Of a stretch of 64,000 bases of DNA, positions 16,428 to 59,812 are shown piece by piece (the stretch's first letter is position 1; every line of letters starts with the position of its first letter). The DNA is from an uncultured Lachnospiraceae bacterium (lineage in GTDB: Bacteria > Bacillota > Clostridia > Lachnospirales > Lachnospiraceae). The position numbers were made by a program, and so were the translations under genes. The notes under the pieces were generated by a model that worked only from the letters and a program-made list of their open reading frames with translations, searched no databases and was not told where the DNA came from. The stretch lies in NCBI GenBank assembly GCA_947627245.1, contig CANQVH010000004.1, positions 1 to 64,000 on the forward strand. Reading direction: 5' to 3'.

Positions 16428-16437
16428 TGTGGTGCAA
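16406..16437 (+). repeat. Left recombination site of the putative invertible switch
   Basis: The 28 bp at 16410-16437 are an exact reverse complement of 16866-16893. The site is itself two-armed: TTGCACAACATTAT, a CTAT spacer, and ATAATGTGGTGCAA, with 13 of 14 arm positions matching in inverted orientation. This is the expected form of a tyrosine-recombinase core site. Confidence 0.85.
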
Positions 16438-16865: not shown

Positions 16866-16893
16866 TTGCACCACATTATATAGATAATGTTGT
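16866..16893 (-). repeat. Right recombination site of the putative invertible switch
   Basis: Exact 28-bp inverted copy of 16410-16437. Its outer arm (ATAATGTTGTAAAT) is more diverged at the far end than the inner arm. The 137 bp from here to the helicase start are leader sequence. Confidence 0.85.
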
Positions 16894-40368: not shown

Positions 40369-40457
40369 GTATGATAGTATGCAATAGTGATTGTGATTAT
40401 TAATATTGTGAGTGATAAAATTATAGAATAGAGTTATTAAAGTTGGAGGAGAGGACT

Positions 40458-41453: not shown

Positions 41454-41492
41454 ATTTTTTTGTGTTGAATATTTTTGCGAGGTGATAATCTG

Positions 41493-42689
41493 ATGGAAAA
41501 GCTGGCGATTGACGGTGGTGCTCCGGTAAGGAATGAGAAGTTGTTTTACGGGAAGCAATGGCTTGACGATGATGATATAGCTGCAGTATGCGAGGTACTT
41601 AGAAGCGATTATATTACATGTGGTCCGAAAGTAAGTGAACTGGAACGGACGTTGGAGAAATATACCGGGGCAGAACATGCAGTTGCAGTATCCAGCGGTA
41701 CAGCCGCTCTTCACTGTGCATGCATGGCAGCGGGGATTGGATCGGGAGACGAGGTGATTACGACTCCACTGACATTTACCGCGAGCGCGAACTGTGCGCT
41801 GTATTGTGGAGCTAGGCCTGTGTTTGCGGATGTAGATATGGAGACTTATAATATTGATCCAACAAGTATAGAGGCGCATGTCACTGACAGGACGAAAGCG
41901 GTCGTGGCGGTGGATTTTACTGGACAGGCAGTAAGGATAAACGAGATTAGGAAAATCTGCGACAGCCATGGATTGATATTTATTGAGGATGCAGCACACT
42001 CGATTGGCACGAGATATGGAGATAAGATGGTTGGAAGCATGGCGGATTTTACCACGTTCAGTTTTCATCCGGTAAAGACAGTGACAGCTGGAGAGGGCGG
42101 AGCTGTCCTTACAAACGATGAGGGATTGTATAAAAAGGTGGTTCTCGCACATACACATGGCATTACGCATGATGAAGATCTGATGGAGGAATCTCCCCAT
42201 GAAGGTTCTTGGTATTATGAGCAGGTGGGGCTGGGATATAATTATAGGCTTACAGACTTTCAGTCCGCGTTGCTCCTTAGCCAGATGGGAAAGATTGAGA
42301 AGTTTAAGACTAGGAGAAAAGCAATCGTGAAGCGCTATGACGAGGTGTTTATGAAAATTCCAGAAATCATTGTTCAAAAGGAGATTCGGGAGTCAGATAC
42401 ATGCAGGCATCTTTATATTATTCGGTTAGATCTGGAAAAGCTGACGTGTACGAGGCGGCAGTTTTATGATGCGATGAGTGCTGAGAATGTCCAATGCCAA
42501 ATTCATTATGTTCCGGTATACTGGTTCCCATATTATAAACATTTAGGCTACGAGCGAGGACTGTGTCCGAATGCCGAGGAAATTTACAAGGGGATTCTTA
42601 GTATACCTCTGTATCCCAAAATGACAGATGCGGATGTGGAGGATGTCATTCGCGCGGTGAAGAAAGTGATTGAGAATTATAGGATATAA
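41493..42689 (+). CDS. pseC: UDP-4-amino-4,6-dideoxy-N-acetyl-L-altrosamine transaminase
   Basis: Second pseudaminic step; a PLP-dependent DegT/DnrJ/EryC1 aminotransferase of about 398 residues. It shows SSGTAALHCA, EDAAHSIG and the PLP lysine in SFHPVKTVTAGEGG. The start at 41493 follows AGGTGAT; the frame extends to TTG 41475 without a better site. The product carries the free 4-amino group that PseH normally acetylates. Confidence 0.92.
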   Translation: MEKLAIDGGAPVRNEKLFYGKQWLDDDDIAAVCEVLRSDYITCGPKVSELERTLEKYTGAEHAVAVSSGTAALHCACMAAGIGSGDEVITTPLTFTASANCALYCGARPVFADVDMETYNIDPTSIEAHVTDRTKAVVAVDFTGQAVRINEIRKICDSHGLIFIEDAAHSIGTRYGDKMVGSMADFTTFSFHPVKTVTAGEGGAVLTNDEGLYKKVVLAHTHGITHDEDLMEESPHEGSWYYEQVGLGYNYRLTDFQSALLLSQMGKIEKFKTRRKAIVKRYDEVFMKIPEIIVQKEIRESDTCRHLYIIRLDLEKLTCTRRQFYDAMSAENVQCQIHYVPVYWFPYYKHLGYERGLCPNAEEIYKGILSIPLYPKMTDADVEDVIRAVKKVIENYRI

Positions 42690-42729
42690 GCTATAGAAAA
42701 AATAAGAGCGGATCAGGAGGAAAGTACCG

Positions 42730-43422
42730 ATGAACATCCGGGGGGGGGCAGATGCTCCGCTTCAATTGTTGATTAAGCAGCTAGATCACATTTTTTTTAT
42801 TACAGCTGATGAGAAAATATCTATATATAAGGCATCAGAAGATGTATATAGGAAATTGGATTATAATTTCAGGCATATCGGTAACAAATATTATTCCTTG
42901 CCGACAGGGATAATTTTTGATATGTATCATTCCGGACAATACACAATGTTTTTATACGAGATGTCTAGGAGACTTGCAAAGGACTCGGCAAACAAGGTCT
43001 TGTGTGATAAAATATACAATTTATGTAAGATGTTATCTTCTGCGGATATTTATTACGAAATAGTATTTCCAGATATATATTTTTTTGACCATCCGCAAGG
43101 AAGTGTGATGGGAAGAGCGGAATATAGCAATTATTTTTTCTTTTCGCAAAACTGTACTGTAGGAAATAACAAAGGGAAATATCCTAGGCTGGGGACACAC
43201 GTATACATGATGTCAGGGGCGAAGATACTTGGAGAGTGCCGGATTGGTGACAGAGTTATCCTTTCAGCCAATACGTATATTAAGGATTGCGACATACCAT
43301 CGGATTCATTGGTATTCGGGAATTGGCCGAATATTATCGTCAAATCGTTAAGTCGAGCAAAATTTGAAGACATTACGAAAAACATTTTTTTGGAAACAGA
43401 AAGAAGGTATATGAATGCATAA
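42730..43422 (+). CDS. Left-handed beta-helix acyltransferase, phase-variable start
   Basis: A 230-residue protein. The first 110 residues are helical, like the N-terminus of serine acetyltransferases. Residues about 120-200 carry hexapeptide-type repeats (SQNCTVGNNKG, YMMSGAKILGECRIGDRVILSANTYI), so an acetyl- or acyl-CoA-dependent transferase is likely. A run of nine G spans codons 4-7. Nine G keeps the frame open; eight or ten G gives a stop within 14 codons. RBS AGGAGG precedes ATG 42730. It may acylate the PseC product or another sugar. Confidence 0.75.
   Translation: MNIRGGADAPLQLLIKQLDHIFFITADEKISIYKASEDVYRKLDYNFRHIGNKYYSLPTGIIFDMYHSGQYTMFLYEMSRRLAKDSANKVLCDKIYNLCKMLSSADIYYEIVFPDIYFFDHPQGSVMGRAEYSNYFFFSQNCTVGNNKGKYPRLGTHVYMMSGAKILGECRIGDRVILSANTYIKDCDIPSDSLVFGNWPNIIVKSLSRAKFEDITKNIFLETERRYMNA
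42740..42748 (+). repeat. Poly-G tract (9 G), gene currently in frame
   Basis: Nine consecutive G, followed by CAGAT, at codons 4-7 of the acyltransferase gene. Loss or gain of one G stops translation almost at once. Confidence 0.9.
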
Positions 43423-44257
43423 GACAGTTTATATTGGAACACTGTATAAAACAGCGGAATATATTTATCAAAGTAATAAGTTTGAATTACTTGGTATAAT
43501 TTGCGAGAAAAACCGTATGTCTGACGAATTATATACGTTTGCATTGGTTCGCGATGTCAGGTTGATCGAAATAAGCAGCAGACAGGAGTTATTAAATACA
43601 TTGCGGACGTTTGGCGAGGACTACATATATGTAATGCATTCATTTGGACTAAGGATTCCAATGGAGAAATTATGCGGATACAGAATATATAATATTCATC
43701 CGTCGGAACTGCCTAAGTATAAGGGAGCGCAGCCGACATATTGGGCGACGGTGAGCAACGAAAAAAGAATTGGGATTTCCATGTTTAGAATAACTGAAAA
43801 TTTTGACGATGGAGAAATAGTGGGGCAGGTGGTTGTCCCATATTATATTTGGGAAAATGAAAAATCATTAACGGAAAAATTAGACGATGCAATTCCAGAA
43901 TTCCTTGAAAAACTTGATGAAAATATTACAAAAGGAATAATTTCGGAGTATAAGAATTGTCCAGGAAATTATTATCCGAAGGTAACGCGTAAGGAAGTGT
44001 ATATTGATCTAGAGAAAGATTCACCTAATATTATTTATAATAAAGTCAGAGCCGAGGCTACATTTGGCGGAGCAAAGATTTGTTTGGATAATAAAACCTA
44101 TTGCCTGTATAAGATTGTATTTTCGAAAGATAGTTTAGATAAGGCATATAATATAGAAGATAATCAACTATTGATTCGGTATAAGGACGATATTTGTATT
44201 AGAGCGACAAGATATACAGTACTTACGGAGGAATTTAAATTTAGGGATGAAAAATGA
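43415..44257 (+). CDS. Formyltransferase-family enzyme (sugar N-formyltransferase)
   Basis: A 280-residue protein related to methionyl-tRNA and sugar formyltransferases that use N10-formyltetrahydrofolate. The active-site segment is YRIYNIHPSELPKYKGAQP, with Asn and His in place, followed by an Asp-containing ITENFDDGEIVGQ. The C-terminal domain differs from that of tRNA formyltransferase. It overlaps the preceding gene by 8 bp and the next by 11 bp. Lying between pseC and pseF, it is the best candidate for acylating the 4-amino group in place of PseH, giving 7-N-formyl pseudaminic acid. Confidence 0.82.
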   Translation: MHKTVYIGTLYKTAEYIYQSNKFELLGIICEKNRMSDELYTFALVRDVRLIEISSRQELLNTLRTFGEDYIYVMHSFGLRIPMEKLCGYRIYNIHPSELPKYKGAQPTYWATVSNEKRIGISMFRITENFDDGEIVGQVVVPYYIWENEKSLTEKLDDAIPEFLEKLDENITKGIISEYKNCPGNYYPKVTRKEVYIDLEKDSPNIIYNKVRAEATFGGAKICLDNKTYCLYKIVFSKDSLDKAYNIEDNQLLIRYKDDICIRATRYTVLTEEFKFRDEK

Positions 44258-44954
44258 AAATATATTGGCAATCATACCTGCGAGGGGAGGCAGTAAACGG
44301 ATCCCAGGGAAAAATATTCGTGAGTTTTTGGGAAAACCAATTATTGCATACTCGATTGAAGCGGCGTTAAAAGCAGACATTTTCGATGAAGTCATGGTGT
44401 CAACCGATAGCCGGGAGATTGCAGACATAGCTTTAGAATGTGGTGCAAAGGTTCCATTTATGAGAGATAAGGTTCTTTCTGATGATTTTGCAACGACAGA
44501 TGATGTAATTGTTGATACCATAAAAAGATACGAAAACCGTCAAAAAAACTATAAATGGGTGGCATGCATTTATCCGACAGCGCCATTTGTGACATCGGAA
44601 CAATTGAAGGACGCATACAAAAAAATAGTAAGTACGCCAGGAGCGGTGGCGACGATGACAATGACCGCATTCTCTTATCCGCCGCAGCGTTCACATATTA
44701 TTGGCGAGGATGGTTTTGCAGTTTTCAAAGAGCCAGAATACATTTCGGCAAGATCCCAGGACCTGGTAAAGATGTATCATGATGCTGGACAGTTCTATAT
44801 TTATGATGCTCAATATTTTGTCCGGGCTAATGGAATCATAACGGAGAAGATCATTCCTGTTATTGTAGACGAGATGAGGGTACAGGATATTGATAATGAG
44901 TCAGACTGGAAGCTTGCTGAGCTAAAGTATTCTATTTTAAATAACATCGTTTGA
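44247..44954 (+). CDS. pseF: CMP-pseudaminic acid cytidylyltransferase
   Basis: A 235-residue enzyme that activates pseudaminic acid with CTP. It has the cytidylyltransferase signature AIIPARGGSKRIPGKNI, then VSTDSREIADIA and the PTAPF segment typical of PseF rather than NeuA. It is translationally coupled to the formyltransferase gene by overlap. Confidence 0.92.
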   Translation: MKNENILAIIPARGGSKRIPGKNIREFLGKPIIAYSIEAALKADIFDEVMVSTDSREIADIALECGAKVPFMRDKVLSDDFATTDDVIVDTIKRYENRQKNYKWVACIYPTAPFVTSEQLKDAYKKIVSTPGAVATMTMTAFSYPPQRSHIIGEDGFAVFKEPEYISARSQDLVKMYHDAGQFYIYDAQYFVRANGIITEKIIPVIVDEMRVQDIDNESDWKLAELKYSILNNIV

Positions 44955-45044
44955 CAAAAATCTATTGTAATTGTTGTTCGGACAAAAATATAGAAGAGCG
45001 GCGCTGGTGAGAAAATGGTTTGCAACGTGGGAGAGGGGAAAATG

Positions 45045-46253
45045 ATGAAGAAGCTAATGATTCTGGGTGGATCAGTTTATATTGTGCCAGTGATAGAAAA
45101 GGCGCATGAAATGGGCATTTATGTCATAACGTGCGATTTTGAGCCAGACAATATAGCCCATAAATACTCAGATCAGTATTGCTATGCAAGTACGGTTGAT
45201 AAGGAAGCAGTTTTGGAATGCGCGATAAAGTGCAGCATTGATGGGATAATGTCTTTTGCCTGTGACAGTGGGGTTGTTACAGCGGCATATGTGGCTGAAA
45301 AGCTGGGACTTCCTTTTCAATGTTCATATGAGTCGGCTCGAATTTTGCAGGACAAGGGATTATTTAGAAAATTCTTGTCAGATAATAAATTTCAAACACC
45401 CAGATCCAAAAGATACACACGAAGAGAAGAGGCACTTGAAGATGCCATATATTTCAAATGGCCAGTTATTGTTAAGCCGGTAGATTCTGCTGGAAGTAAA
45501 GGAGTAACGAAAGTGGAGGATGCTGAAAAACTGGGCAATGCTATAGACACAGCCTTTAAGTATTCTCACACGGGGGCAATCATTATAGAAGATTTTTTAA
45601 CATTCAAAGGATACCGTTCAGATACAGATGTATTTACCATAGGAGGAAAGATAAGCTTTATTTCTTATTCAGACCAGCTGTTTGATGCGAGTGCAGACAA
45701 TCCATATAAGCCGGCATGGATCATTTGGCCTTCTACGATGGAGCAGGATGATCAGGAAGTTCTTACTGGTGAAATTCAAAGGTTATTTGACCTTTTAAAA
45801 ATGGAATCGGGTATATATAATATAGAAACGTGTGTTGGCAGTGATGGTAGGCAATATATTATGGAAGTATCTCCTAGGGGAGGGGGTAATCGTATTGCAG
45901 AAATTCAAAAACAAATCTTTGGGATTGATTTAATAGAGGCAGAAATAAAAAGTGCGTTGGGAATCTTTATAGATGAAATGAAGTATGGTCAACCGAATGA
46001 GTGCTGGTGTGAGCTTGTTATACATCCTTCGAACGGTAAATCAGGTGTTTTTTTGGGAATTACAATTACCGAGGATATTAAACAAAAATATGTAAGGAAA
46101 ATTAAACTGTCAGCTAAACCTGATATGCTAATTCAGTACAATCCAGAGGCAGGAAATGTGATGGGGGATATTTTTTTAAAATGTTCGAATAGAGAAGAAT
46201 TAAATGATTTGTTGGCAGATACAAAAAAATGGCTCAAATTACAATTCAGGTGA
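45045..46253 (+). CDS. ATP-grasp ligase in the pseudaminic acid cluster
   Basis: A 402-residue ATP-grasp protein. A pre-ATP-grasp domain (about 1-100; LMILGGSVYIVPVI) is followed by the ATP-binding fold: KWPVIVKPVDSAGSKGVTKV (P-loop-like) and the Mg-binding YIMEVSPRGGGNR. ATG 45045 is preferred because GAGAGGGG lies just upstream; in-frame ATGs exist at 45042 and 45015. Enzymes of this type join a carboxylate to an amine, so aminoacylation of an amino sugar is possible. It is not part of the standard Pse pathway. Confidence 0.75.
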   Translation: MKKLMILGGSVYIVPVIEKAHEMGIYVITCDFEPDNIAHKYSDQYCYASTVDKEAVLECAIKCSIDGIMSFACDSGVVTAAYVAEKLGLPFQCSYESARILQDKGLFRKFLSDNKFQTPRSKRYTRREEALEDAIYFKWPVIVKPVDSAGSKGVTKVEDAEKLGNAIDTAFKYSHTGAIIIEDFLTFKGYRSDTDVFTIGGKISFISYSDQLFDASADNPYKPAWIIWPSTMEQDDQEVLTGEIQRLFDLLKMESGIYNIETCVGSDGRQYIMEVSPRGGGNRIAEIQKQIFGIDLIEAEIKSALGIFIDEMKYGQPNECWCELVIHPSNGKSGVFLGITITEDIKQKYVRKIKLSAKPDMLIQYNPEAGNVMGDIFLKCSNREELNDLLADTKKWLKLQFR

Positions 46254-46266
46254 ATGAGGTGGGAAA

Positions 46267-48402
46267 TTGATTTTTATTCGTACAGATGCGAACGAAGAAA
46301 TTGCGGCAGGACATATGATGCGATGTAAAACTATTGCATATGAACTGCACGAGTTGGGCAGACAGGTTGTCTTTTTAGTGTCTGATGACAAATCTAGAAA
46401 GCTTTTGGAAGAGGAGTTCCAATGCAGGGTATTGGGTACCCGTTGGGATAAGCTGAATACAAAAGAAGAACTGGAAATTATGAAAGTAATTTTGGCGGAA
46501 TCCGAAAAAGAAGAGAAAGAGATTCCAGCGTTATTTGTAGACTCTTATTTTGCAGATAATAGTTATTTCCGCGAGCTAAAAAAGTATGCCAAAATTATAT
46601 TCCTGGATGATCTGGCGGAAGACACCTATGATGTGGATGTGCTTATAAACTATAATGTCACGTATGAAAAATATGATTACGAAAACAGGTACAGAAGTAA
46701 AAATACGAGACTTATCTTAGGACCTGATTTTGTGCCATTGAGAAGGCAGTTTGATGAAGAAAGGGTGATAGAAAGAAATTATAATTTTGTCGGCAAGCCT
46801 AACATTTTGATTATGTGTGGCGGTGGCGACACGGAAAATGCAATATATACTATACTGAATTTTTTGAGGCAGACGGAAAGCTTTGAAAAATATTATTATT
46901 ATGTTGTAGTTGGAGCGTATAATCCGAATTTTGAAGGAATCATGGAGTTAGCGGCGAAATGCCATAATGTCAACATATTATACAATGTTAGCGATATGGC
47001 AACAGTAATGCAAAAGTGTGACATGGCAATCGCCGCTGCAAGTACAGTACTATACGAGTGTTGTGCAGCAGGTTTACCTACTGCCTTTTTTGTAGTAGCG
47101 GATAATCAGGAGCCGGACGCAGAGGCTTTCAGCGAAAAATATAATCTAATCTATTTGGGAGACTTTAGAAAGGATAGGGAAGGAGTCCTCAAAAATATAA
47201 TATTAGCGATCGAAAATTTGTCTTCCAATATATTGCTTAGGAAAACTATGTCAAAGAAAATGCAGGAGATAGTAGACGGAAAAGGGGCACAAAGAATAGC
47301 AAACCTACTGACGAGAATTTTTGAAATAGGATCCTTTTTTGAGGAAGAAGAATATGTATCCGAGCAAAGGAGAGATAAAGTCGAAAATAATCCTGGGGGG
47401 GGGCAGATAAGGCTTTGGAATGATGGGAGAACAGCGATTTCGGCAGTGCTTGATGAACTGGAGACAGGAATTGAGAAGAAGATATGCTTTCTTCCAGAAT
47501 ATACTTGCGATACCGTTATCCTTCCATTTGTAAAGCATAGCTATGAAATCCATTTCTATCGAATTCGAAAAAATTTGAGCATTGATGTCGGCTGGTTTGA
47601 GGAAAACTTGTACCAATATCGCCCGAATGTTATTTTGCTACATACCTATTATGGTTGTGATCAGCTGAGTGGGGCTTATGAGATATTAAAGGAATATAAA
47701 AGAAACACATTGGCAGTTGTTATTGAGGATCTGACACAGTCACTGTTTTTGTATAACATGGCAGTTAGACGAGCGGATTTTGTAGTCTGCAGTTTAAGAA
47801 AATGGTTTGCGATACCAGATGGGGGATTTTCGCTGAAGGTAGACAGAAAGGCTTCAAAATCCAGAGAAGCGAGTAAGATTAATTATACAAATGCAGGCTA
47901 TATCAAAACTAAACAACTGGCACAGAAGCTGAAACTATCTTATCTTCGAGGAGAATTAATTGAAAAGAAGCTGTTCCTTGACCTTAACAGGAAGGCTGAA
48001 CAGATGCTTTATACCGGAAATGACTTATATGGGATGTCAGAATATGCAAAGGAATATTTGCAGAATGCAAATATTGCTGAAAAGAGGGAACAAAGAAAAA
48101 GAAATGCTGAGATTTTGTGGGAAGGCCTGGAAAACTTGAATATGGAAATGGCTGCTAATTTTTGTGACGGAACAGTTCCGTTATATGTGCCCATTTATGT
48201 AAACGACAGGGGGAAGATTCAAGAAGAATTAAGGGAAAAAGGTATTTATGCGCCGGTTTTATGGCCGGTGACGGAACAACTATCAGACAGTTTGAGCGAG
48301 GATGCGAGGTATATTTATGCCCATTTGCTTGCCTTGCCTTGTGACTACAGATATGATGAAAGGGATATGCGATATATTATCAGTGTGCTGAAAGATTTGT
48401 GA
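46267..48402 (+). CDS. pseG: PseG hydrolase fused through a poly-G tract to an aminotransferase-like domain
   Basis: A 711-residue fusion. Residues 1-345 are PseG, which removes UDP from the di-N-acylated altrose intermediate: RTDANEEIAAGHMMRC, MCGGGDTENAI and AAASTVLYECCAAGLP. Residues 380-711 resemble a fold-I PLP enzyme of the DegT/EryC1 type: VIEDLTQSLF with the PLP Asp, and Lys in SLRKWFAIPDGG. Codons 377-379 are GGG GGG GGG. With eight G a stop follows three codons later; with ten G, seven codons after the GCA. In those phases PseG would be made alone. PseG is normally a single-domain protein, so the second domain is a phase-variable add-on. TTG 46267 follows GAGGTGGG. Confidence 0.82.
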   Translation: MIFIRTDANEEIAAGHMMRCKTIAYELHELGRQVVFLVSDDKSRKLLEEEFQCRVLGTRWDKLNTKEELEIMKVILAESEKEEKEIPALFVDSYFADNSYFRELKKYAKIIFLDDLAEDTYDVDVLINYNVTYEKYDYENRYRSKNTRLILGPDFVPLRRQFDEERVIERNYNFVGKPNILIMCGGGDTENAIYTILNFLRQTESFEKYYYYVVVGAYNPNFEGIMELAAKCHNVNILYNVSDMATVMQKCDMAIAAASTVLYECCAAGLPTAFFVVADNQEPDAEAFSEKYNLIYLGDFRKDREGVLKNIILAIENLSSNILLRKTMSKKMQEIVDGKGAQRIANLLTRIFEIGSFFEEEEYVSEQRRDKVENNPGGGQIRLWNDGRTAISAVLDELETGIEKKICFLPEYTCDTVILPFVKHSYEIHFYRIRKNLSIDVGWFEENLYQYRPNVILLHTYYGCDQLSGAYEILKEYKRNTLAVVIEDLTQSLFLYNMAVRRADFVVCSLRKWFAIPDGGFSLKVDRKASKSREASKINYTNAGYIKTKQLAQKLKLSYLRGELIEKKLFLDLNRKAEQMLYTGNDLYGMSEYAKEYLQNANIAEKREQRKRNAEILWEGLENLNMEMAANFCDGTVPLYVPIYVNDRGKIQEELREKGIYAPVLWPVTEQLSDSLSEDARYIYAHLLALPCDYRYDERDMRYIISVLKDL
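47395..47403 (+). repeat. Poly-G tract (9 G) at the PseG/aminotransferase junction
   Basis: Nine G followed by CAGATAA. In the present length it joins the two domains in one frame. One G fewer puts TAA two codons past the tract. Confidence 0.9.
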
Positions 48403-48412
48403 GGGAAAAGGG

Positions 48413-49477
48413 ATGCAAAAAGAAAATGGAAATGTGACAATTTCGGGTAAAACAATAGGCAATGGGAATCCATGTTTTATTATTGCGGAGATGTCCGGCA
48501 ATCATAATATGGATTATTCGAGAGCGGAAGAGCTTGTGAAAGCTGCAGCATCTGCGGGTGTTGATGCTGTAAAACTGCAAACATATACTGCAGATACGAT
48601 AACACTAAACTCCAATAAAGATTGTTTTATGACGGAGGAAGGGGGTCTTTGGGAGGGACAGACACTGTATGACCTATACCGGCAAGCATATACCCCTTGG
48701 GAGTGGCAGCCGAAACTGAAAAGACTTGCGGATTCTCTTGGAATCATTCTATTTTCATCTCCGTTTGACTGTTCGGCGGTTGATTTTTTGGAGGATATGA
48801 AAGTTCCGGCGTATAAAATTGCGTCCTTTGAAATTATGGATACAGTTTTGCTACGTAAGGTTGCAAGAACAGGAAAACCGATATTGATATCAACCGGAAT
48901 AGCAACTATTGGAGAAATACAAGAGGCAATAGATGTGTGCAAGGCGGAGGGTAACGATAAACTCATTTTGCTGAAATGTACATCTGCTTATCCAGCTCCA
49001 TATGAAGAGATGAATTTAAGCATGATAAAGAACCTGCAGAATACGTTTGGCTGTCAGGTGGGGCTGTCCGACCACTCCATGGGAGATGAAATAGCGATTG
49101 CCGCTGTGGCGATGGGAGCTAATGTAATAGAGAAGCATTTTACCCTGAAAAGGAGTGACGGGGGAGTTGATTCTGCGTTTTCTATGGAAGCTGAAGAAAT
49201 GAGAGTGATGGTACAAAGAATACGAAATGTGGAGAAAGCAGTAGGAAAGATCGACTATTCTCTATCGATGGTACAAAAAAAGGAGCGGCAGTTTGGACGT
49301 TCCCTTTTTGTAAGTAAAGCAATAAAAAAGGGAGAAATTTTTACGCCGGATAATATTAGATCGGTGAGACCATCGAATGGCCTGGAAGTCAAATATTATG
49401 ATGAGATAATTGGGAAAAAGTCGACCCGAGATTTAGAATTTGCCAAACCGCTTGAATGGGCAGATATTTGTACATGA
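48413..49477 (+). CDS. pseI: Pseudaminic acid synthase
   Basis: A 354-residue enzyme condensing the 6-deoxy-diacylaminoaltrose with phosphoenolpyruvate to pseudaminic acid. An N-terminal NeuB-type TIM barrel (IAEMSGNHNMDYSRAEELV, DAVKLQTYTADTITL, GLSDHS, EKHFTLKR) is followed by a C-terminal SAF/antifreeze-like domain (about 290-350). The DAVKLQTYTADT segment favours PseI over NeuB or LegI. Confidence 0.93.
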   Translation: MQKENGNVTISGKTIGNGNPCFIIAEMSGNHNMDYSRAEELVKAAASAGVDAVKLQTYTADTITLNSNKDCFMTEEGGLWEGQTLYDLYRQAYTPWEWQPKLKRLADSLGIILFSSPFDCSAVDFLEDMKVPAYKIASFEIMDTVLLRKVARTGKPILISTGIATIGEIQEAIDVCKAEGNDKLILLKCTSAYPAPYEEMNLSMIKNLQNTFGCQVGLSDHSMGDEIAIAAVAMGANVIEKHFTLKRSDGGVDSAFSMEAEEMRVMVQRIRNVEKAVGKIDYSLSMVQKKERQFGRSLFVSKAIKKGEIFTPDNIRSVRPSNGLEVKYYDEIIGKKSTRDLEFAKPLEWADICT

Positions 49478-49527
49478 TATAAATTTATTGTTGCTTTTGC
49501 GAGAAAAAGGAAAGAAGGGAATTTGGC

Positions 49528-51096
49528 TTGGCGCTAACATCGTATGCATATATTATCTTTCTGGCAGTATTGATCCTGGTATATTACCATATGCCTAAAT
49601 ATCAGTGGAAATTACTGCTGCTAGCAAGTTATATCTTTTATGGAGCTTTATCACCGGCATATCTTTTATTGCTGCTGTTTGTGACATTTGTGACATATCA
49701 GAGCGCGGTATGGATTTCAGATCTACAGGTATCAGGATGCGTTACTTTTCTAGAGACTGGTCCGACTGATGACAGTATGGAAAAAGCAGGACTGGAGAAT
49801 AAGAAAAGGAAAATCCTTATTACAACGCTTGTAGTAATGCTGGCAGTTCTGATTGTATTCAAATATTTGTCTTTCATATTTCAGAACATATCTGCGCTTG
49901 CGAGCATGCTTGGTTTTCACGCAGGTATGCCTGTTTTGAATCTGATACTTCCGGTTGGATTATCCTTTTACTTGTTTCAGGGTATGGGATATGTTATTGA
50001 TGTGTATCGTGGGGAGTGTAAGGCAGAGCGCAATTTCTTTCGGCATGCACTGTTTATTTCCTTTTTTCCACAGCTTCTGCAAGGACCAATCGGTTCCTAT
50101 GGGGAGTTAGCACCCCAATTGTTTAAGGAGCATGAATTTGATTATTCGCGGGCTGCCAGTGGAGCTCTGCGGATCATGTGGGGCTTTCTGAAAAAGCTGG
50201 TGATTGCAAACCAGATTGAATCGGTAATTGGAGTTGTTTTTGCATATTATACGAATTATTCTGGAGTGGTTTGGATTTTAGCTTTATTTTTGTATGCGGT
50301 AGAATTATACGCCGATTTTTCCGGTTATATTGATATTGTGAACGGAAGCGCGGAGATGCTGGGGATTACAATGCGAGAAAACTTTGATGCTCCCTATTTT
50401 TCTTCGTCGATTGCTGAGTTTTGGAGAAGATGGCATATTTCTCTGGGAACCTGGTTTCGGAGCTATCTGTTTTATCCGGTTTTAAGATCGAATCGTATGA
50501 ATTCATTTCGCATGAAACTGAAGGAAAGTGGTTATGCAAAATTGGCATCTGTATTGCCAACTGTGTTTGCGCTTGCTTTAGTATGGCTTTGTACTGGTGT
50601 ATGGCATGGGGCAGCATGGGGATATATTTTATGGGGTGTCTATTATGGTGTATTCATATGCCTTGATGCCACAATGAAACAAGTATATTCAAAATGGAGA
50701 AAAAGGCACTGTCAATTATATAATAATCCGTATTTCAAATGCTTTCAAATCGTGCGTACATTTTTAATAGTAGTATTTGGGTATGGCATTTTCCGGCCGG
50801 CAGATTTGAAGGAAACAGGTTATATTTATAGTCACATTTTTGTATCGGGGGGGGGTATTCCGCAATTATATAATTTGCTTATAAGTAATAAAACAGCAAT
50901 ACTTGCTATTATTTTGGGTACAGTAGGCCTCTTTTTGACAGACTTATATCATTTGGATAAATCACGTGAACCGTTGAGGATGCAAATCATGAATGCAAGA
51001 CCAATAGTGAAATATACGGCTTGCTTTGTGGGACTTTTTATAATCGCTTTGTTTGGGGCATTTGGTGAGTCATCATTTATTTATTTTGGTTTCTAG
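49528..51096 (+). CDS. MBOAT O-acyltransferase, phase-variable
   Basis: A 522-residue polytopic membrane O-acyltransferase (DltB/AlgI-like): ILPVGLSFYLFQGMGYVIDVYRG, FFPQLLQGPI, FWRRWHISLGTWFRSYLFYP and the active-site His in WLCTGVWHGAAWGYILWG. It transfers acyl groups to glycans outside the membrane. The nine-G run at codons 440-443 is in frame; one base more or less stops translation within about 12 codons, removing the last 70 residues. TTG 49528 follows AAGAAGGGA. With the SGNH-like gene that overlaps its end it forms the usual two-part acylation system. Confidence 0.87.
   Translation: MALTSYAYIIFLAVLILVYYHMPKYQWKLLLLASYIFYGALSPAYLLLLLFVTFVTYQSAVWISDLQVSGCVTFLETGPTDDSMEKAGLENKKRKILITTLVVMLAVLIVFKYLSFIFQNISALASMLGFHAGMPVLNLILPVGLSFYLFQGMGYVIDVYRGECKAERNFFRHALFISFFPQLLQGPIGSYGELAPQLFKEHEFDYSRAASGALRIMWGFLKKLVIANQIESVIGVVFAYYTNYSGVVWILALFLYAVELYADFSGYIDIVNGSAEMLGITMRENFDAPYFSSSIAEFWRRWHISLGTWFRSYLFYPVLRSNRMNSFRMKLKESGYAKLASVLPTVFALALVWLCTGVWHGAAWGYILWGVYYGVFICLDATMKQVYSKWRKRHCQLYNNPYFKCFQIVRTFLIVVFGYGIFRPADLKETGYIYSHIFVSGGGIPQLYNLLISNKTAILAIILGTVGLFLTDLYHLDKSREPLRMQIMNARPIVKYTACFVGLFIIALFGAFGESSFIYFGF
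50847..50855 (+). repeat. Poly-G tract (9 G) in the MBOAT gene, in frame
   Basis: Nine G between TATC and TATTCC encode Gly-Gly-Gly just before the last membrane segments. Both alternative frames end quickly. Confidence 0.9.
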
Positions 51097-51115
51097 TCGA
51101 AAGAGGTGTGAGATC

Positions 51116-52195
51116 ATGAGAAAATTCATATGGGAATGCATTTGTATAACAATTGTTTTTTTTGCAGTAATTGCTTTAACTAACTATTTTGGTGATCCTG
51201 CAAATTTGTATCATGAAGGGACAATAAATGAGTTAGTGTCGCTTCTCGCAAAGGGGAATATAGTGTCTAAATCCGGGGACATGGATGAGCGGATGTTCCA
51301 GAAAGTCAGAATAGAATCGTTACAAAGTGTTCCGGAAACTGTTATCTTGGGCAGTAGCCATGTGGTGTACGTGCCTTGGGAATTTGAAGCCTACTATGTT
51401 GGTGGAGTGTCTGGGGCAGTGCTAAACGATTATATTGGCATACTAGGAATTTTGGACTATTATGGAAAACTTCCTTCCACCATAGTTATTGGTGTTGATC
51501 CATATATATTTTATGACAAATTTGATGAGAAAAGATACCAGAGTATTCAGAAATTTGTGGACTTAGGATACAGGATTCTTAGGGGAGAAGAGGGCAAAAA
51601 CGATGAAATGGATAAGGACTTTATTCAATATCAGTTACTGAAAGCGAAAGAGTTGATTTCCTTGTCGTATTTTCAAAATTCCCTAAAGTTAATGATAAAA
51701 AATTCTTTTCGACAGGAGAACCATGTGTTAAGTGTTGAAGATACCTCAATTGGGGAAGACTTGAAGGTACTTCCTAACGGTCGATATATACCAAGGCTAA
51801 GCACTTTTTGCTCGATAGAGGAGAATAGAAACATTACTCGAAAAAATATTGACAGCCAGAATATTTATAAGATGAATGGCTTTTCTGATGTGTCCGATGA
51901 AAAAAAAGAACTGTTTGAGCTAATGACAGAGTACTTGTTATCTGAAGAAATTAAAATTGAAATTTACCTTCCGGCATGGTATCCAGATTATTATGAGGAG
52001 TTCAAAAAGAATGATACATTGTTTGGAGTATTGAAGGCAGAGGAGTATATCCGCGAAATGGCTGCCGAAAGAAATATTCCTGTACATGGTTCTTATGATC
52101 CAGATAAGGTGGGTGTGACGGAGAAGGACTTTATGGATGATATGCACTTGACCCCAGAGGCAGCCATACAGGAATATAATGTCATTTTACAATAA
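51116..52195 (+). CDS. SGNH-like membrane-anchored partner of the MBOAT protein
   Basis: A 359-residue protein with one N-terminal TM helix (about 5-22) and an external domain. It shows the SGNH/DltD-AlgX-like block ILGSSHVVYVPWEF (catalytic Ser about 80) and a C-terminal DDMHLTPEA with the Asp-x-x-His pair. Such proteins act with MBOAT proteins in O-acylation of glycans. ATG 51116 is chosen because AGAGGTGTGAG lies upstream; the longer frame overlaps the MBOAT gene. Confidence 0.75.
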   Translation: MRKFIWECICITIVFFAVIALTNYFGDPANLYHEGTINELVSLLAKGNIVSKSGDMDERMFQKVRIESLQSVPETVILGSSHVVYVPWEFEAYYVGGVSGAVLNDYIGILGILDYYGKLPSTIVIGVDPYIFYDKFDEKRYQSIQKFVDLGYRILRGEEGKNDEMDKDFIQYQLLKAKELISLSYFQNSLKLMIKNSFRQENHVLSVEDTSIGEDLKVLPNGRYIPRLSTFCSIEENRNITRKNIDSQNIYKMNGFSDVSDEKKELFELMTEYLLSEEIKIEIYLPAWYPDYYEEFKKNDTLFGVLKAEEYIREMAAERNIPVHGSYDPDKVGVTEKDFMDDMHLTPEAAIQEYNVILQ

Positions 52196-52225
52196 TTATA
52201 GGAGAAAATATTAGAAAGAACAATT

Positions 52226-54028
52226 ATGAAAGAATTAGAATACCCTTTTGACCCGCAATATATACTCTCAAAAAAGAAAAAGATCAAGAGAATGCTATTG
52301 GAAGGTTCCGGCAGACTGAAGGGGCAGAACGGCTCCCTGACAGACAAGAGGATCGCCATCCTCGGAGGCTCCACGACGAGCGACATCAGGCTTGTCATGG
52401 AACTTTTTTTGTTGAATTATGGCATCCGCCCGTTCTTCTATGAGTCGGAGTACAACCAGTGGTACCAGGACGCGATGTTCGACAACCCGGAACTTGCGGA
52501 GTTTAAGCCGGACATCATCTACATCCACACGACGAACCGGAACATTACGGCATATCCGCAGATGGCGGACAGCGCGGAGGACGTGGACAGGCTGCTCGCC
52601 GGGGAGACGGAGAAATTCCGGGGCGTCTGGGAGCACCTTGCACAGACGTACCATTGCCCTATCATCCAGGACAATTTCGAGATGCCATTCTACCGCCTGC
52701 TGGGGAATAAGGACGCCAGCGATATACACGGAAAGGTGAACTTCCTGACCCGGTTGAACCTCAGGTTCTATGAGTACGCGCAGGCACATGAGAATTTTTA
52801 CATCTGTGACATCAATTATATCTCGGCGGACTACGGGCTGAAGGAATGGTCGGACCCGTTCTACTACCACATGTACAAGTATGCATTGAACGTGAACGCA
52901 ATCCCATACCTTACCTTCAACGTGGCGAACATCATCAAATCGCTGTTCGGGAAGAACAGGAAGGGGTTCGTACTCGACCTAGACAACACGCTCTGGGGAG
53001 GCGTGGTCGGGGACGACGGCGTGGACAACCTCGTGCTCGGGCCGGAGGAGTCCGAGGGGCAGGTGTACTCGGAGTTCCAGAGATACCTAAAGGAGCATAA
53101 GCAGCTCGGGGTGATTTTGAACGTGGATTCCAAGAATGACTATGAAAACGCCATTTCCGGGCTGAACCATCCGGATAGCGAGCTGGTGCCGGATGACTTC
53201 ATCGTGATCAAGGCGAACTGGGAGCCGAAGGACAGGAACTTTGCGGAGATCGCGTCGGAGCTGAATCTGCTGCCGGAGAGCTTGGTGTTCGTGGACGACA
53301 ACCCAGCGGAGCGTCACATCGTGGAGTCACAGTTGCCGGGCGTTTGTGCGCCGGAGATCGGGTCCGTGCACCAGTACATCCAGACGATCGACCGGAGCGG
53401 GTTCTTCGAGGTGACGACCCTGTCGAAGGACGACATGAAGCGCAACGAGATGTACCGGGAGAACGCGGAGCGGGCGCAGTTGCAGGCAAGCTTTTCAGAC
53501 TATGGGGAATACCTGAAGTCGCTGGGGATGAAGGCGGTGATCCGGGCGTTCGAGCCCATCTATATGGCGCGGATCGCGCAGCTGACGAACAAGAGTAACC
53601 AGTTCAACCTGACGACGAGGCGGTATACGCAGGCGAAGATTGAGGCAGCAGCGGCGGACGGGAACTATATCACGCTGTACGGAAAGCTGGAGGATCGCTT
53701 CGGGGACAACGGGGTGGTGTCCGTGGTGATCGGGCATGTGGTGGGGGATGTATGCCACATCGACCTGTGGATCATGAGCTGCCGGGTGCTGAAACGTGAC
53801 ATGGAATTTGCAATGATGGATGTGTTAGTGAAGAAGTGCCGGGAGCGCGGCGTGAAGGAACTCCGGGGCTATTATTACCCGACGGCAAAGAACGGGATGG
53901 TGAAGGGGTTCTATTCGTTGCAGGGATTTGAAAAGATCCGGGAGGATGATGGAGGAAATACTGAGTGGCGGTTCGTGATACCGGATACCTATGAGGACAA
54001 GACAGACATGATCACAGTAGAGTATTAA
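52226..54028 (+). CDS. fkbH: FkbH-like HAD-IIIC protein with GNAT-like C-terminus
   Basis: A 600-residue protein. An N-terminal SGNH-like region (LGGSTTSDI at about 48) is followed by the HAD-IIIC domain (about 245-390; VLDLDNTLWGGVVGDDG, then VDDNPAER) and a GNAT-like C-terminal domain. FkbH proteins make glyceryl-ACP from 1,3-bisphosphoglycerate in polyketide pathways. An ACP gene lies 462 bp downstream, so an ACP-bound glyceryl or similar acyl group for the MBOAT system is likely. This gene and the next few are clearly more GC-rich than the genes around them, suggesting separate acquisition. Confidence 0.85.
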   Translation: MKELEYPFDPQYILSKKKKIKRMLLEGSGRLKGQNGSLTDKRIAILGGSTTSDIRLVMELFLLNYGIRPFFYESEYNQWYQDAMFDNPELAEFKPDIIYIHTTNRNITAYPQMADSAEDVDRLLAGETEKFRGVWEHLAQTYHCPIIQDNFEMPFYRLLGNKDASDIHGKVNFLTRLNLRFYEYAQAHENFYICDINYISADYGLKEWSDPFYYHMYKYALNVNAIPYLTFNVANIIKSLFGKNRKGFVLDLDNTLWGGVVGDDGVDNLVLGPEESEGQVYSEFQRYLKEHKQLGVILNVDSKNDYENAISGLNHPDSELVPDDFIVIKANWEPKDRNFAEIASELNLLPESLVFVDDNPAERHIVESQLPGVCAPEIGSVHQYIQTIDRSGFFEVTTLSKDDMKRNEMYRENAERAQLQASFSDYGEYLKSLGMKAVIRAFEPIYMARIAQLTNKSNQFNLTTRRYTQAKIEAAAADGNYITLYGKLEDRFGDNGVVSVVIGHVVGDVCHIDLWIMSCRVLKRDMEFAMMDVLVKKCRERGVKELRGYYYPTAKNGMVKGFYSLQGFEKIREDDGGNTEWRFVIPDTYEDKTDMITVEY

Positions 54029-54043
54029 GGGTGGGAGAAGAAG

Positions 54044-54436
54044 ATGAAGATACACCATATCGGGTACATGGTAAAACAGATAGAGTATGCGGCAGAGCTT
54101 TTTGAAAGCTTGGGTTTCCGCATGGATGGTGCTGTGACCTGTGATGCAGGGAGGGATGCGGAGATCTGTGTCCTAGATTCGGAAGGTTACTGTGTTGAAC
54201 TGGTCGCACCAAGGGAAACAAGTCCCCTGTATGGCATGATGAAGAAATATAAGAACACAGCCTATCATATATGCTACCGGGTTCTTTCTTTAAAAGGAAG
54301 CGTTGAAAAACTTGAAAAGGATGGCTGGCACATGTTTAAGGAAGCGGAGGACGCGCCGACGATCGGGAGGGACGCAAAGGTTGTTTTCATGATGTCGGCA
54401 AATATAGGGATGATAGAATTATTTGAAATGGATTAA
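54044..54436 (+). CDS. VOC/glyoxalase-family protein
   Basis: A 130-residue single-domain vicinal oxygen chelate protein: MKIHHIGYMVKQIEYAAELFESLGF resembles methylmalonyl-CoA epimerase-type members, with a C-terminal MIELFE strand holding the last metal ligand. It lies between fkbH and the ACP gene and probably acts on the acyl-ACP or on its precursor; the reaction is unknown. Confidence 0.75.
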   Translation: MKIHHIGYMVKQIEYAAELFESLGFRMDGAVTCDAGRDAEICVLDSEGYCVELVAPRETSPLYGMMKKYKNTAYHICYRVLSLKGSVEKLEKDGWHMFKEAEDAPTIGRDAKVVFMMSANIGMIELFEMD

Positions 54437-54490
54437 AGCGAGCAAAAAAAGGACCACTAATTTAATACAAGAATAAAGGAGGACATGAAG

Positions 54491-54736
54491 ATGAGCAGGG
54501 AAGAGATTTACACGAAACTGAACGAGGTATTTCAGGATGTATTTGATGATGACACGATTACGGTGAACGATGCGACCACGGCGGATGACATCGAGGATTG
54601 GGATTCGCTTGAACACATCAACCTGGTCGTGGCGGTGGAGAATGCGTTTAACATGAAGTTCAACATGGGGGAGGTCAACGGTATGAAGAATGTTGGTGAG
54701 ATGGTGGATATTATTTTGACAAAAATAGGTGAATGA
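54491..54736 (+). CDS. Acyl carrier protein
   Basis: An 81-residue ACP with the phosphopantetheine serine in WDSLEHINL. It is probably loaded by the FkbH-like protein. ATG 54491 is chosen over ATG 54485 because GGAGG lies eight bases upstream. A second, frameshifted copy exists at 57134-57375. Confidence 0.9.
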   Translation: MSREEIYTKLNEVFQDVFDDDTITVNDATTADDIEDWDSLEHINLVVAVENAFNMKFNMGEVNGMKNVGEMVDIILTKIGE

Positions 54737-54771
54737 TTATCAATTTTATTATATAGCAAAAGGAGAAAAGC

Positions 54772-56101
54772 ATGTCGTCATTTGAGCAGAAATCTATGGT
54801 AATTGGGGAGGAAATGTACGATCTTACGAAGAAAATTTTTCCATACTGTCGAAGTATAACCGGGGGGGGGCGTTAGAGCTACTCTGAGAGAATTAGCAGA
54901 ATATATTAGGAAGAAATGCGGACTGGAGTTGAAAATATGTTCCGTGCCGTCTGGGACTTCGGTGTTTGACTGGACTGTGCCGAAGGAATGGGTGATCCGA
55001 GATGCCTATATTGAAGATGAGACCGGAAAAAAAATCATTGACATGAAGGAAAATAACCTGCATGTCATGGGTTATTCCGTGCCGGTAGATCAATGGGTGG
55101 AGTTGGACGAGTTGAAAAAGTATATTTATACACAGCCGGATCAGTCGCAAGTAATCCCCTATGTGACTTCATATTACAAAGAGCGTTTTGGTTTTTGCAT
55201 GAGCGAAGATCAGAAAGGGGCTCTGCAGCCGGGGAGATATCATATGTATATTGACAGTGAATTGGTAGATGGTTTCCTGAATTATGCAGAGATAGTTCTT
55301 CCTGGCGAAACAGAGAAAGAGGTATTCTTTTCTACTTACATATGCCATCCATCTATGGCGAATAACGAGTGTTCTGGGCCGGTGCTGGCAGCGGCACTGA
55401 TTCACTATGTTGCCGCGATGAAAAAGCGAAGGTATACATATCGCTTTGTGTTTATACCAGAAACGATTGGATCCATTACTTATATGAGTGTTGATAATCA
55501 CTTGGAGTGCATGAAACGACATATGATTGCTGGATTTAATCTTTCGTGCGTGGGAGATGACAGAGACTATTCGATTGTGGAATCCAGGTATACGGATACG
55601 CTGGCAGATAGGGTTTTAAAGAATGTGCTTGGCGGGCGGGGAAGGTATTCTACGTATTCATTTCTAGAAAGAGGTTCAGATGAACGTCAGTATAATGCTC
55701 CAGGAATTGAACTGCCGGTTGTTTGCTTTTGCCGATCGAAGTTTGGGGAATATCCGGAGTACCACACATCTGCAGACAATATGGAGCTCGTGAGTCCGTC
55801 TGGTTTCCAGGGCAGCTACGAAGTCATGACACAGGTAATATGTGTGCTAGAGAGCAATGCCAGATATCGGATAAAGGTTCTGGGAGAGCCACAGCTTGGA
55901 AAACGGGGACTTTACCCGACAGTCAGTCAAAAAGGCAGCTATGATGGGGTAAAGGCTATGACGGACTTTATTACTTATGCAGATGGAAAGAACGACCTGA
56001 TCGATATCAGTAATCGGATTGGAGTGCCAGTCTATAAACTACTATCTGTGATTGACAAATTGAAAAAAGCTGATCTGGTAGAGAAGAGGGATATCAAATG
56101 A
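54772..56101 (+). pseudogene. DUF4910 aminopeptidase-like gene switched off by a poly-G tract
   Basis: ATG 54772 (RBS AGGAGAAAAG) opens MSSFEQKSMVIGEEMYDLTKK and reads into nine G, then CGT TAG, giving a 34-residue peptide. With eight G the frame continues as TGGGVRATLRELAEY and joins a 410-codon downstream frame ending at 56101. Homologues of this family read RSITGDGVRETL at this point, so eight G is the functional length. The downstream part has VPSGTSVFDWTVPKEW, YICHPSMANNECSG (metal-binding His and Asp/Glu region of M28-like peptidases) and a C-terminal winged-helix segment. It is best read as a reversibly OFF gene, not a dead one. Role in the glycan locus is unknown. Confidence 0.85.
54862..54870 (+). 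repeat. Poly-G tract (9 G) that puts the DUF4910 gene out of frame
   Basis: Nine G at codons 31-33 of the DUF4910 gene. One G fewer restores the full-length frame. Confidence 0.9.
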
Positions 56102-56973
56102 AATGTATAGATATTTTTTGGGATCTAGATTTGCGGTTGCAGGAGGCAGGAATACAGAAAGGTGATATAGTTTATGTCGCATCGAATATGCGTAGCTTGC
56201 TTTATCTTTTGATAGGGGAACTTAAACTGCAAAGTGAACAAGAGCGTGATGATGTTCTGCATACTTTGACAAATCATCTACAAAGTGCAGTGGGAGAAGA
56301 GGGAACGCTTTTATTTCCGGTATTTACATGGGACTTTTGCAAAGGAAAAGAATTCGACTATTATAAAACACAGGGAAAAGTAGGAATTTATCCAAATTGG
56401 ATACTGAATAAAAGAAAAGACTTTAAGAGGACAAGGCACCCGATATATTCTTTTATGGTGTGGGGGAAAAATAAAGACTTTTTGTGTCGTATGGATAACC
56501 AAGAAGCATGGGGCGAAAACTCGCCTTTTTGGTATGTGCTAAAACATGGTGGGAAGCAGATGAATTTTAATGTGGAAGCATACAGATCGCTCACATTTGC
56601 ACATTGTTTTGAACAATGGAGTAAAGTCCCTTATCGACATCACAAGTTTTTCTTTGGGAAGTATACGGATGAATTGGGAAATGCAGAGATAAGATCCTAC
56701 TCGATGTATGTGCGTGATTTGGAGGTGAGTGAGCGCATAAAAGTAACAAATGAATATTTGCTTAGGAATAGTGTAGCAAAACAAGCAGTTTGGCAGGGTA
56801 ATATCTTGACACTGATTGACTTGCAGAAATGTCGTGTGTTGCTTGAAGAGGATATAATAAATAATGAAGGCAAGGAAACGCTACATTTTGACGATTACCA
56901 GTTTCGTTATGGTGAAGAGCAAACGATTCCCTATGAAATTGGGTGGATTCCTGATTTAGTAGATATGCTATGA
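56098..56973 (+). CDS. AAC(3)-family N-acetyltransferase-like protein
   Basis: A 291-residue member of the family named after aminoglycoside 3-N-acetyltransferases (FPVFTWDFCKGKEFDYYKT, RTRHPIYSFMVWG, WGENSPFWYVLKHGG). In surface-glycan clusters such proteins are usually sugar N-acetyltransferases, not resistance enzymes. It overlaps the DUF4910 gene by four bases (ATGA), so its translation is likely coupled to that gene and may fall when the poly-G switch is OFF. Confidence 0.78.
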   Translation: MKCIDIFWDLDLRLQEAGIQKGDIVYVASNMRSLLYLLIGELKLQSEQERDDVLHTLTNHLQSAVGEEGTLLFPVFTWDFCKGKEFDYYKTQGKVGIYPNWILNKRKDFKRTRHPIYSFMVWGKNKDFLCRMDNQEAWGENSPFWYVLKHGGKQMNFNVEAYRSLTFAHCFEQWSKVPYRHHKFFFGKYTDELGNAEIRSYSMYVRDLEVSERIKVTNEYLLRNSVAKQAVWQGNILTLIDLQKCRVLLEEDIINNEGKETLHFDDYQFRYGEEQTIPYEIGWIPDLVDML

Positions 56974-57133
56974 TTTATACAAATCCAAAGGTATATTGTA
57001 GGTCTTGAAAGTAATATGCATCAGATGTGCTACAGATTAAGTTAGATTTGAACGTGAAAGCTAGAAACAACTATGAAACCGTGTTTTGAGTCTTAAGTGA
57101 CTGGATAAAAAAATGGAATTGGAGGATTATGAA

Positions 57134-57375
57134 ATGAAAGGGGATGAGATTTATATAAAACTTAATGAAGTGCTTGAGATATATTTGACGACGAGATGAT
57201 TGTAGCAAACGACACAACCACGGCAGATGATATCGAGGATTGGGATTCGCTAGAACACATCAATCTGATCATGTCTGTGGAGAATGCCTTTGGCGTGAAA
57301 TTCAACATGGGGCAGGTCAATGGCATGAAGAATGTGGGTGAGATGGTGAATATCATTATGTCGAAAGTTGATTGA
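57134..57375 (+). pseudogene. Frameshifted second acyl carrier protein gene
   Basis: ATG 57134 follows GGAGG. The first 16 codons (KGDEIYIKLNEVLE) match the intact ACP at 54491, but one G is missing near 57178 (GAGATATA where GAGGATATA is expected). The remaining frame reads DIFDDEMIVAND and includes WDSLEHINL, closely matching the intact copy to the TGA at 57373. A single-base deletion has broken the gene; no homopolymer lies there, so reversal is unlikely. Confidence 0.85.
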
Positions 57376-57430
57376 TGATAAGAAATAGTCTTAATCCTTC
57401 GCTATGTTGGGGAGAATAGGGTAGTTGGAA

Positions 57431-57502
57431 ATGTTGAGGACATTGGTAATAGGGGGGGGGCAGAGCAGACCATCATTGCAAGAAAAGCAGTTTAGATATT
57501 GA
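57431..57502 (+). pseudogene. Decayed reading frame carrying a poly-G tract
   Basis: A 23-codon frame (MLRTLVIGGG and onwards) contains nine G at 57452-57460, followed by CAGAGC as in the other tracts. No alternative G length opens a long frame, so this looks like the remains of a further phase-variable gene at the edge of the locus. Confidence 0.4.
57452..57460 (+). repeat. Poly-G tract (9 G) in a decayed region
   Basis: Fifth nine-G run of the locus, followed by CAGA, as in the tracts at 42740 and 47395. Confidence 0.85.
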
Positions 57503-57528
57503 CAAAATCACCTGCCAAACCATATGAT
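57499..57528 (+). promoter_or_regulatory. Promoter of the HD-GYP gene
   Basis: TTGACA (57499-57504), an 18-bp spacer and TATGAT (57523-57528), about 60 bases before the ATG at 57590. It marks where chromosome backbone resumes. Confidence 0.75.
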
Positions 57529-57589
57529 ATTTTCAGCAGCCGACGGGCGTGCGTTTTTACTTCACAAAATTTCCGGAGGTTTTGGGAAT

Positions 57590-58831: not shown

Positions 58832-58892
58832 GCATGATATACATGATATAAATAAGTCCACAGCGCAAATGAAACAGGAGTTGTCTGCAAAA

Positions 58893-58922
58893 GACCGGGA
58901 TTTCCCGGCCTTTATTTTTTTA
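58893..58922. terminator. Bidirectional terminator between HD-GYP and response regulator genes
   Basis: CCGGGATTTCCCGG stem followed on the plus strand by TTTATTTTTTT, and on the minus strand by TTTT. The two genes converge here. Confidence 0.8.
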
Positions 58923-59631: not shown

Positions 59632-59812
59632 GATCTGTCTCCTTATTTTTATATATGTTCAACTATGCCAAGCCACAGACGTGTCTGCCAAGGCAGCTAC
59701 CGGCTTCTTCGAGGCTTATGTCTGTTTTCGCACATCCTCACAGAACGCAAATCCGCCCGCAACGTATAAATGCGTCTCGGCGCTCTGTGTTCTGTAGCAT
59801 GGCCGAACGTGC

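Follow-up and report, generated by a model that had tools for sequence, protein, structure and literature searches.

A G9-bearing pseudaminic-acid locus

We analysed a stretch of 64,000 nucleotides from an uncultured Lachnospiraceae bacterium, the first 64 kb of contig C4 (CANQVH010000004.1), hereafter the window, for five runs of nine G (G9 tracts) that an earlier note had proposed to be slipped-strand contingency switches. The assembly of the window's own genome, labelled G000, comprises 3.84 Mb on 151 contigs with a completeness of 97% and a contamination of 7%; other G and L labels denote related genomes and fetched loci. The genes around the tracts, encoding PseB, a DegT aminotransferase, PseF, PseG and PseI, make up a predicted pseudaminic-acid pathway (Table 1). 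A run-length census of the 64 kb confirmed all five positions, each run being exactly nine G and all on the plus strand, and the longest other G or C run was at most 5, in agreement with the earlier note that the window holds no further run of this length. The CAGA that it had seen behind several tracts lies directly 3' of tracts 1, 2 and 5, and TATT and CGTT lie behind the other two. CAGA as a general motif behind the tracts was dropped, being present at only three of the five.

Table 1. The five G9 tracts, the genes that hold them and the tract-free pseudaminic-acid genes of the window
Feature	Coordinates	Strand	Length	Description
PseB and DegT/DnrJ/EryC1 aminotransferase (PseC position)	40443..42689	+		PseB over the TIGR03589 cut-off; tract-free
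Tract 1 open reading frame (ORF)	42730..43422	+	230 aa	Hexapeptide acyltransferase type, CysE/EpsC-like; AGGAGG upstream of ATG
G9 tract 1	42740..42748	+		Fourth codon of its ORF; in frame at nine
PseF, pseudaminic acid cytidylyltransferase	44247..44954	+		TIGR03584 over cut-off; tract-free
PseG with fused extra domain	46267..48402	+	711 aa	PseG-type part 46267-47394 (376 aa); TIGR03590 186.3 bits, cut-off 153.55, residues 2-287
G9 tract 2	47395..47403	+		Directly 3' of the PseG-type part; in frame at nine
PseI, pseudaminic acid synthase	48413..49477	+		TIGR03586 over cut-off; tract-free
MBOAT (DltB-like) O-acyltransferase	49528..51096	+	522 aa	DltB match under cut-off
G9 tract 3	50847..50855	+		79 codons before the MBOAT ORF end; in frame at nine
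DUF4910 gene	54772..56101	+		Split at tract 4; DUF2172 and HTH_47 also matched
G9 tract 4	54862..54870	+		Within conserved SITGxGVR; frame broken at nine, stop just behind tract
G9 tract 5	57452..57460	+		Outside any recognisable gene, nine bases 3' of 57392-57443

All five tracts had been assigned to the pseudaminic/decoration part of the locus. Four lie in genes of that locus, three of them in frame at nine G and one (tract 4) not, and tract 5 lies outside any recognisable gene. A change of length would alter the product at the same four tracts. The ORF holding tract 1 resembled hexapeptide acyltransferases below threshold (Hexapep 24.2 bits against a cut-off of 27; both NCBIfam matches also under cut-off). 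The PseG part of the 711-aa ORF matched the UDP-sugar hydrolase 3hbm in the PDB, whereas neither Pfam (up to E 0.1) nor the PDB (up to E 1) gave a match for the 335-aa domain joined to it. With nine G the frame continues into these 335 aa; in the other frames the PseG part stops within a few codons. Because tract 2 sits behind the PseG-type part, slippage there would switch the fused extra domain rather than PseG itself. The SITGxGVR motif that is broken by tract 4 was uninterrupted in 20 of 20 DUF4910 relatives inspected (36 loci found), none of which had a G run longer than 5 there.

The sequence beside tract 5 (57392-57443) was 85% identical to a stretch of L089 immediately 5' of a transposase gene of IS200-like type (PF01797, E 3.6e-39), and is probably the scar of an IS200-like element. 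No G run of at least six was found in this L089 counterpart. Two acyl-carrier-protein-like copies were also noted by eye at 54485-54736 and at about 57134-57375, the second of which looks frame-shifted and lies just 5' of the putative scar and tract 5.

Long G runs in the genome and the genus

To set the five tracts against chance, Markov chains of order 1-4 were fitted to the window and simulated 40 times per order. Runs of at least nine G or C were expected at a mean of 0.05-0.23 per 64 kb with a maximum of 2, as compared to 5 observed. Counted on both strands, G000 held 52 runs of six G, 7 of seven, 13 of eight, 22 of nine, 7 of ten, one of eleven and one of twelve (the six-G count was derived from 241 six-mers, and lengths nine to twelve were read off overlapping matches), for totals of 31 tracts of at least nine G and 44 of at least eight. 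Because the counts drop to 7 at length seven and climb to 22 at nine, the long runs are a second population peaking at nine and not the tail of the first. Runs of at least nine G were present in 41 of 47 genomes of the genus, with 31 each in G000 and G015, 19 in G051 and 0-13 in the remainder.

Of the 31 G000 tracts of at least nine G, 18 lie within or just 5' of a gene with a glycan, cell-surface or signalling family (Pfam/NCBIfam) by our own count, which excludes DUF4910 and includes FrhB/FdhB and MptE-like genes, presumed to be glycan-type from the company they usually keep. The genes holding tracts in the window are likewise mainly of cell-surface type. Among the 44 G000 tracts of at least eight G, those in N-terminal or mid-gene positions occurred in glycosyltransferase, FkbM, SDR, acyltransferase, Wzy_C, PGA_cap and ATP-grasp genes. 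Four further G000 tracts, G10-G12 or G9 in length, lie 9-13 bases 5' of a likely ATG (L010:3031, L011:3051, L013:3006, L016:3090), and the genes behind them encode two histidine-kinase-type proteins, one HD/GGDEF protein and one choline-binding L,D-transpeptidase. Two others stand between TTGACA and a -10-like box (L017:2519, L023:3004). This promoter-spacer type was also found in other genera of the family (L284, L286, L287, L291, L320) and was recognised for none of the five window tracts.

The rival view, in which the tracts are due to chance or are ordinary GGG runs coding for glycine and switch nothing, gains some support from the three window tracts that are in frame and encode glycines. 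It is at odds with the excess over the Markov models, with the dip at seven and peak at nine, with a DUF4910 gene that is out of frame at nine inside a conserved motif, and with tracts 5' of ATGs and in TTGACA/-10-like spacers where no glycine is coded, and we consider it very unlikely. The five window tracts are instead, with high probability, members of a poly-G contingency set switched by replication slippage. As slippage lengthens or shortens a G run, expression of the gene around it would change too. In the window the acyltransferase, the MBOAT acyltransferase and the DUF4910 gene would be turned on and off, and the extra domain would be fused to or unfused from PseG. The pseudaminic-type glycan would be decorated differently from cell to cell, and the fifth tract would switch nothing. 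The excess of long runs, their placement and frame states, their recurrence across the genus and the differences in length from genome to genome are observed, and from these we infer that slippage is reversible in a clone and that it changes the glycan. The earlier note was right in kind when it proposed a contingency set, given the excess, placement and recurrence in the genus, and undercounted the set, which has 31 genomic tracts of at least nine G and not five; its reading also has to be corrected at tracts 2 and 5. Its four independently switched genes, giving up to 16 states, are correct in number but not in kind; the 16-state count is only formal because PseG is not turned off outright, no recognisable gene holds the fifth tract and the genomic set is larger.

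Searches for other elements were negative, with no near-identical DNA matched in phages and nothing in Rfam up to E 0.1 across 40000-60000 that would point to an RNA element at the tracts. Two observations concern tracts in other kinds of sequence. At L026:3029 (G000 C68:15828) a G9 lies in a very small ORF, two pieces of which by eye resemble the double-glycine leader of a precursor of a bacteriocin or of a ribosomally synthesized and post-translationally modified peptide; neither had a Pfam match. In G555, a small genome of another genus, several G8-G10 tracts (L283, L311-L313) lie in long coding frames that do not look glycan-like by eye.

Tract-length variation and mismatch repair

To compare tract lengths across genomes, as the earlier note had suggested for strains, tracts of 7-14 G in the fetched loci, 308 in number, were aligned by their flanks, which gave 32 pairs. 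Ten were kept, from different genomes and with at least 150 aligned bases; within-genome pairs, shorter matches and poly-G contig ends were set aside. Lengths differed in three of the ten (9/10, 11/12 and 12/9), two of these by a single base and the other by three, and were equal in seven, and none of the pairs included a window tract. In the best case L038 and L045, two named Lachnospiraceae loci that are about 83% identical over 20 kb, carried three G tracts at the same places with lengths of 12/12/11 and 12/9/12, two of the three differing.

MutS domain I (PF01624) was matched in 45 of 47 genus genomes; G007 and G008 had none, the G043 match, counted among the 45, was weak and lay in a giant frame, and G000 has an 888-aa open frame. 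Loss of mismatch repair as the cause of the tracts was rejected as the MutS frame is kept in G000 and most of the genus. Campylobacter and Helicobacter, unlike G000, are not known to keep MutS.

Several points weigh against a switching role. Lengths were equal in seven of the ten aligned pairs, which also favours plain glycine-coding runs, and some of the ten use several copies from one genome. No orthologue suitable for comparison with the window's tract genes was found in the genus, where the DNA matches fell in other parts of the locus. The presence of MutS may lower slippage, and switching may be slower because G000 keeps its MutS frame. Homopolymer lengths in assemblies can err, and poly-G artefacts of 30 and 52 bases end contigs of relatives. 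With 7% contamination in G000, tracts on other contigs may be foreign.

Another rival view is that the tracts themselves are assembly or sequencing artefacts, either two-colour poly-G or homopolymer miscalls, as the runs at relatives' contig ends and the position of several tracts near contig ends would suggest. However, the five window tracts are contig-internal, the reading frame is respected in three of the four genes, and tracts recur at the same place in independent assemblies (L038/L045; L183/L328). We judge an artefact even less likely than chance or glycine coding, and slippage-switched tracts remain the preferred reading.

Two features of relatives' assemblies were noted in addition. 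In G015, two contigs (L137 and L138) are identical over the 67 bases leading into a G9 tract, and each breaks off about 77 bases before the tract, a pattern that looks as if the assembly forked at the G9. In L231 and L233, G runs summing to about 52 bases stand at contig ends of two relatives and are probably sequencing artefacts.

Tracts at gene ends

Six G000 tracts, none of them in the window, lie at the extreme 3' end of long ORFs. At each, one frame leads into a tail of 19-31 aa ending in AA or VA and the other two stop within nine codons. To define this 3' class we surveyed 151 tracts from G000, two named loci and a further ten genomes of the genus, using a strict architecture blind to the last residues (ORF of at least 120 aa, longest tail 15-45 aa, other frames at most 9 codons). 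Fourteen tracts qualified, the six of G000 and eight spread over five other genomes, mostly in glycan-type genes. Their tails were 17-33 aa long and all 14 ended in AA (11) or VA (3), two of the 14 tails being near-identical copies. Both states were seen, eight of the 14 being assembled in the tail frame and six not. As the idea of an -AA ending arose from the six G000 tracts, it has test value only in the eight outside G000 (8/8) and in the later sets described below. The same ending was found in 10 of 288 tails obtained by shifting the frame of ordinary genes, in 13 of 691 ends of genes that have the same architecture and no tract (five random cut points per end, not independent) and in 1 of 109 off-frame ends of mid-gene tracts, where AA alone was found in 0 of 109.

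The tmRNA tags of the genus read AEDNLALAA, AEDNLAYAA or AEDNLAIAA (8/8 loci scanned, 12 fetched), and since they end in this way -AA is, as predicted from these tags, the group's own destruction mark. In other bacteria -LVA is a working variant of the ssrA tag. In all 14 the stop codon of the tail also falls within -1 to +5 nt of the next gene's start, so that it overlaps or abuts that start, with nine ATGA overlaps and a Shine-Dalgarno-like string upstream of the next start in all 14; by chance a tail stop fell at the next start in 59 of 691. The genes flanking the tract were paralogous in 7 of 14 pairs as compared to 10 of 239 tract-free neighbour pairs in the same kind of loci (blastp E <= 1e-5), and in 8 of 21 over every pair tested. 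The seven pairs belonged to MptE-like (twice), GT2, GT8, FrhB/FdhB, epimerase and cytidylyltransferase-like families.

From this arrangement we propose, at roughly even confidence, that the 3' poly-G is a phase-variable degron-and-coupling toggle that swaps one glycan enzyme for its sister. In one of the three length classes the upstream enzyme would gain a 17-33 aa -AA/-VA tail acting as a gene-encoded ssrA-like degron, and upstream ribosomes would stop on the start of the next gene, coupling the two. In the other two length classes the enzyme would end at once, stable and uncoupled from its neighbour. One slippage event would in this way exchange a glycan enzyme for a sister of different specificity, beyond simply turning it off; an exchange between sisters is suggested because half of the pairs are tandem paralogues.

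A rival reading is that the 3' class serves translational coupling only, the tail carrying ribosomes to the next start and -AA being a by-product of the preceding bases (GCNGCATGA). The tail stops at the next start in 14/14, the nine ATGA overlaps and the Shine-Dalgarno-like strings are what it would predict. Against it, these loci hold 43 coupled junctions and AA or VA was found in none of the 35 that are not tract tails. GCNGC preceded the ATG in 12 of 346 starts with a Shine-Dalgarno-like sequence, nine of the 12 being tract tails. The penultimate Ala is encoded by gcg, gca or gct (by gcc in the near-strict L326), its third base varying under a constant residue, and in L009 the two Ala codons stand clear of the next ATG. 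The -AA/-VA ending is left unexplained by coupling alone because 0 of 35 other coupled junctions end so and the Ala third base varies, and we regard coupling without a degron as possible but rather unlikely.

The -AA ending of the proposed degron was tested further, and some of the results count against it as a rule. Of 23 gene-end tracts nine fell outside the strict class (L027, L109, L115, L135, two in L139, L142, L159, L160), and only L160 shows the ending (-AVA, 42 aa). Among 64 tracts held out from 11 genus genomes, of which G048 had partly been used before, one strict case was found, and it did not end in AA (0/1). In other genera one strict case besides G000 was found among the 30 loci listed, and this one, L289, ends in -AQ (0/1). 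Three further strict cases among 20 stretches of our own choice, partly picked by eye, ended in AA or VA in 3 of 3. Pooled, 17 of 19 strict cases end in AA or VA. The 3' class is confined to some species, as the later sets yielded few strict cases. A search for the tail pattern across the order gave matches in seven other genomes, two of which were examined.

Relation to known phase-variation systems

Surface-glycan genes of Campylobacter switch frame by poly-G, for example cgtB of C. jejuni 11168, and there about 8-10 G in glycan genes change by one base (PMC6437147) to give a frameshift and a truncated enzyme, as we propose for the tracts described above. Unlike in Campylobacter, the tracts are in a Firmicute that keeps MutS and also occur behind genes, 5' of ATGs and in promoter spacers, and the switching is predicted from sequence. 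The spacer tracts resemble the promoter-spacer repeats of Neisseria such as nadA, where repeat length changes promoter spacing (PMC2791445); unlike nadA-type repeats they are G runs between TTGACA and a -10-like box (the seven spacer tracts named above). Invertible promoters of gut bacteria (PhaseFinder class, PMC11868660) likewise give stochastic variation in gut bacteria, but the G tracts themselves showed neither a recombinase nor an inverted repeat.

The tails of the 3' class resemble the ssrA (tmRNA) tag and ClpXP degrons in their C-terminal -AA. Unlike the ssrA tag, these putative degrons are encoded by the gene behind a slippery tract, are 17-33 aa long and diverse, and are not added by tmRNA. 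No report of poly-G or slipped-strand phase variation in Lachnospiraceae or Firmicutes was found in the open-licence library searched, nor was a paper found there that joins slippage to a degron or to coupling. We propose that a repeat-switched degron/coupler tail is a new, strongly patterned variant of slipped-strand phase variation. If true, slippage of a simple repeat would act through proteolysis and translational coupling and would exchange enzymes beyond silencing them. The presence of 31 tracts in a gut Firmicute that keeps MutS, with 41 of 47 genus genomes positive, makes the question testable beyond pathogens.

The earlier note had also mentioned an invertible promoter. A perfect 28-bp inverted repeat (16410-16437 / 16866-16893, 428 nt spacing) is adjoined by a phage-integrase-family gene (15456-16427) and stands upstream of a 941-aa helicase-type ORF (17031-19856). 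Together, repeat and integrase (15456-16893) may well mark an invertible promoter, possibly the one meant.

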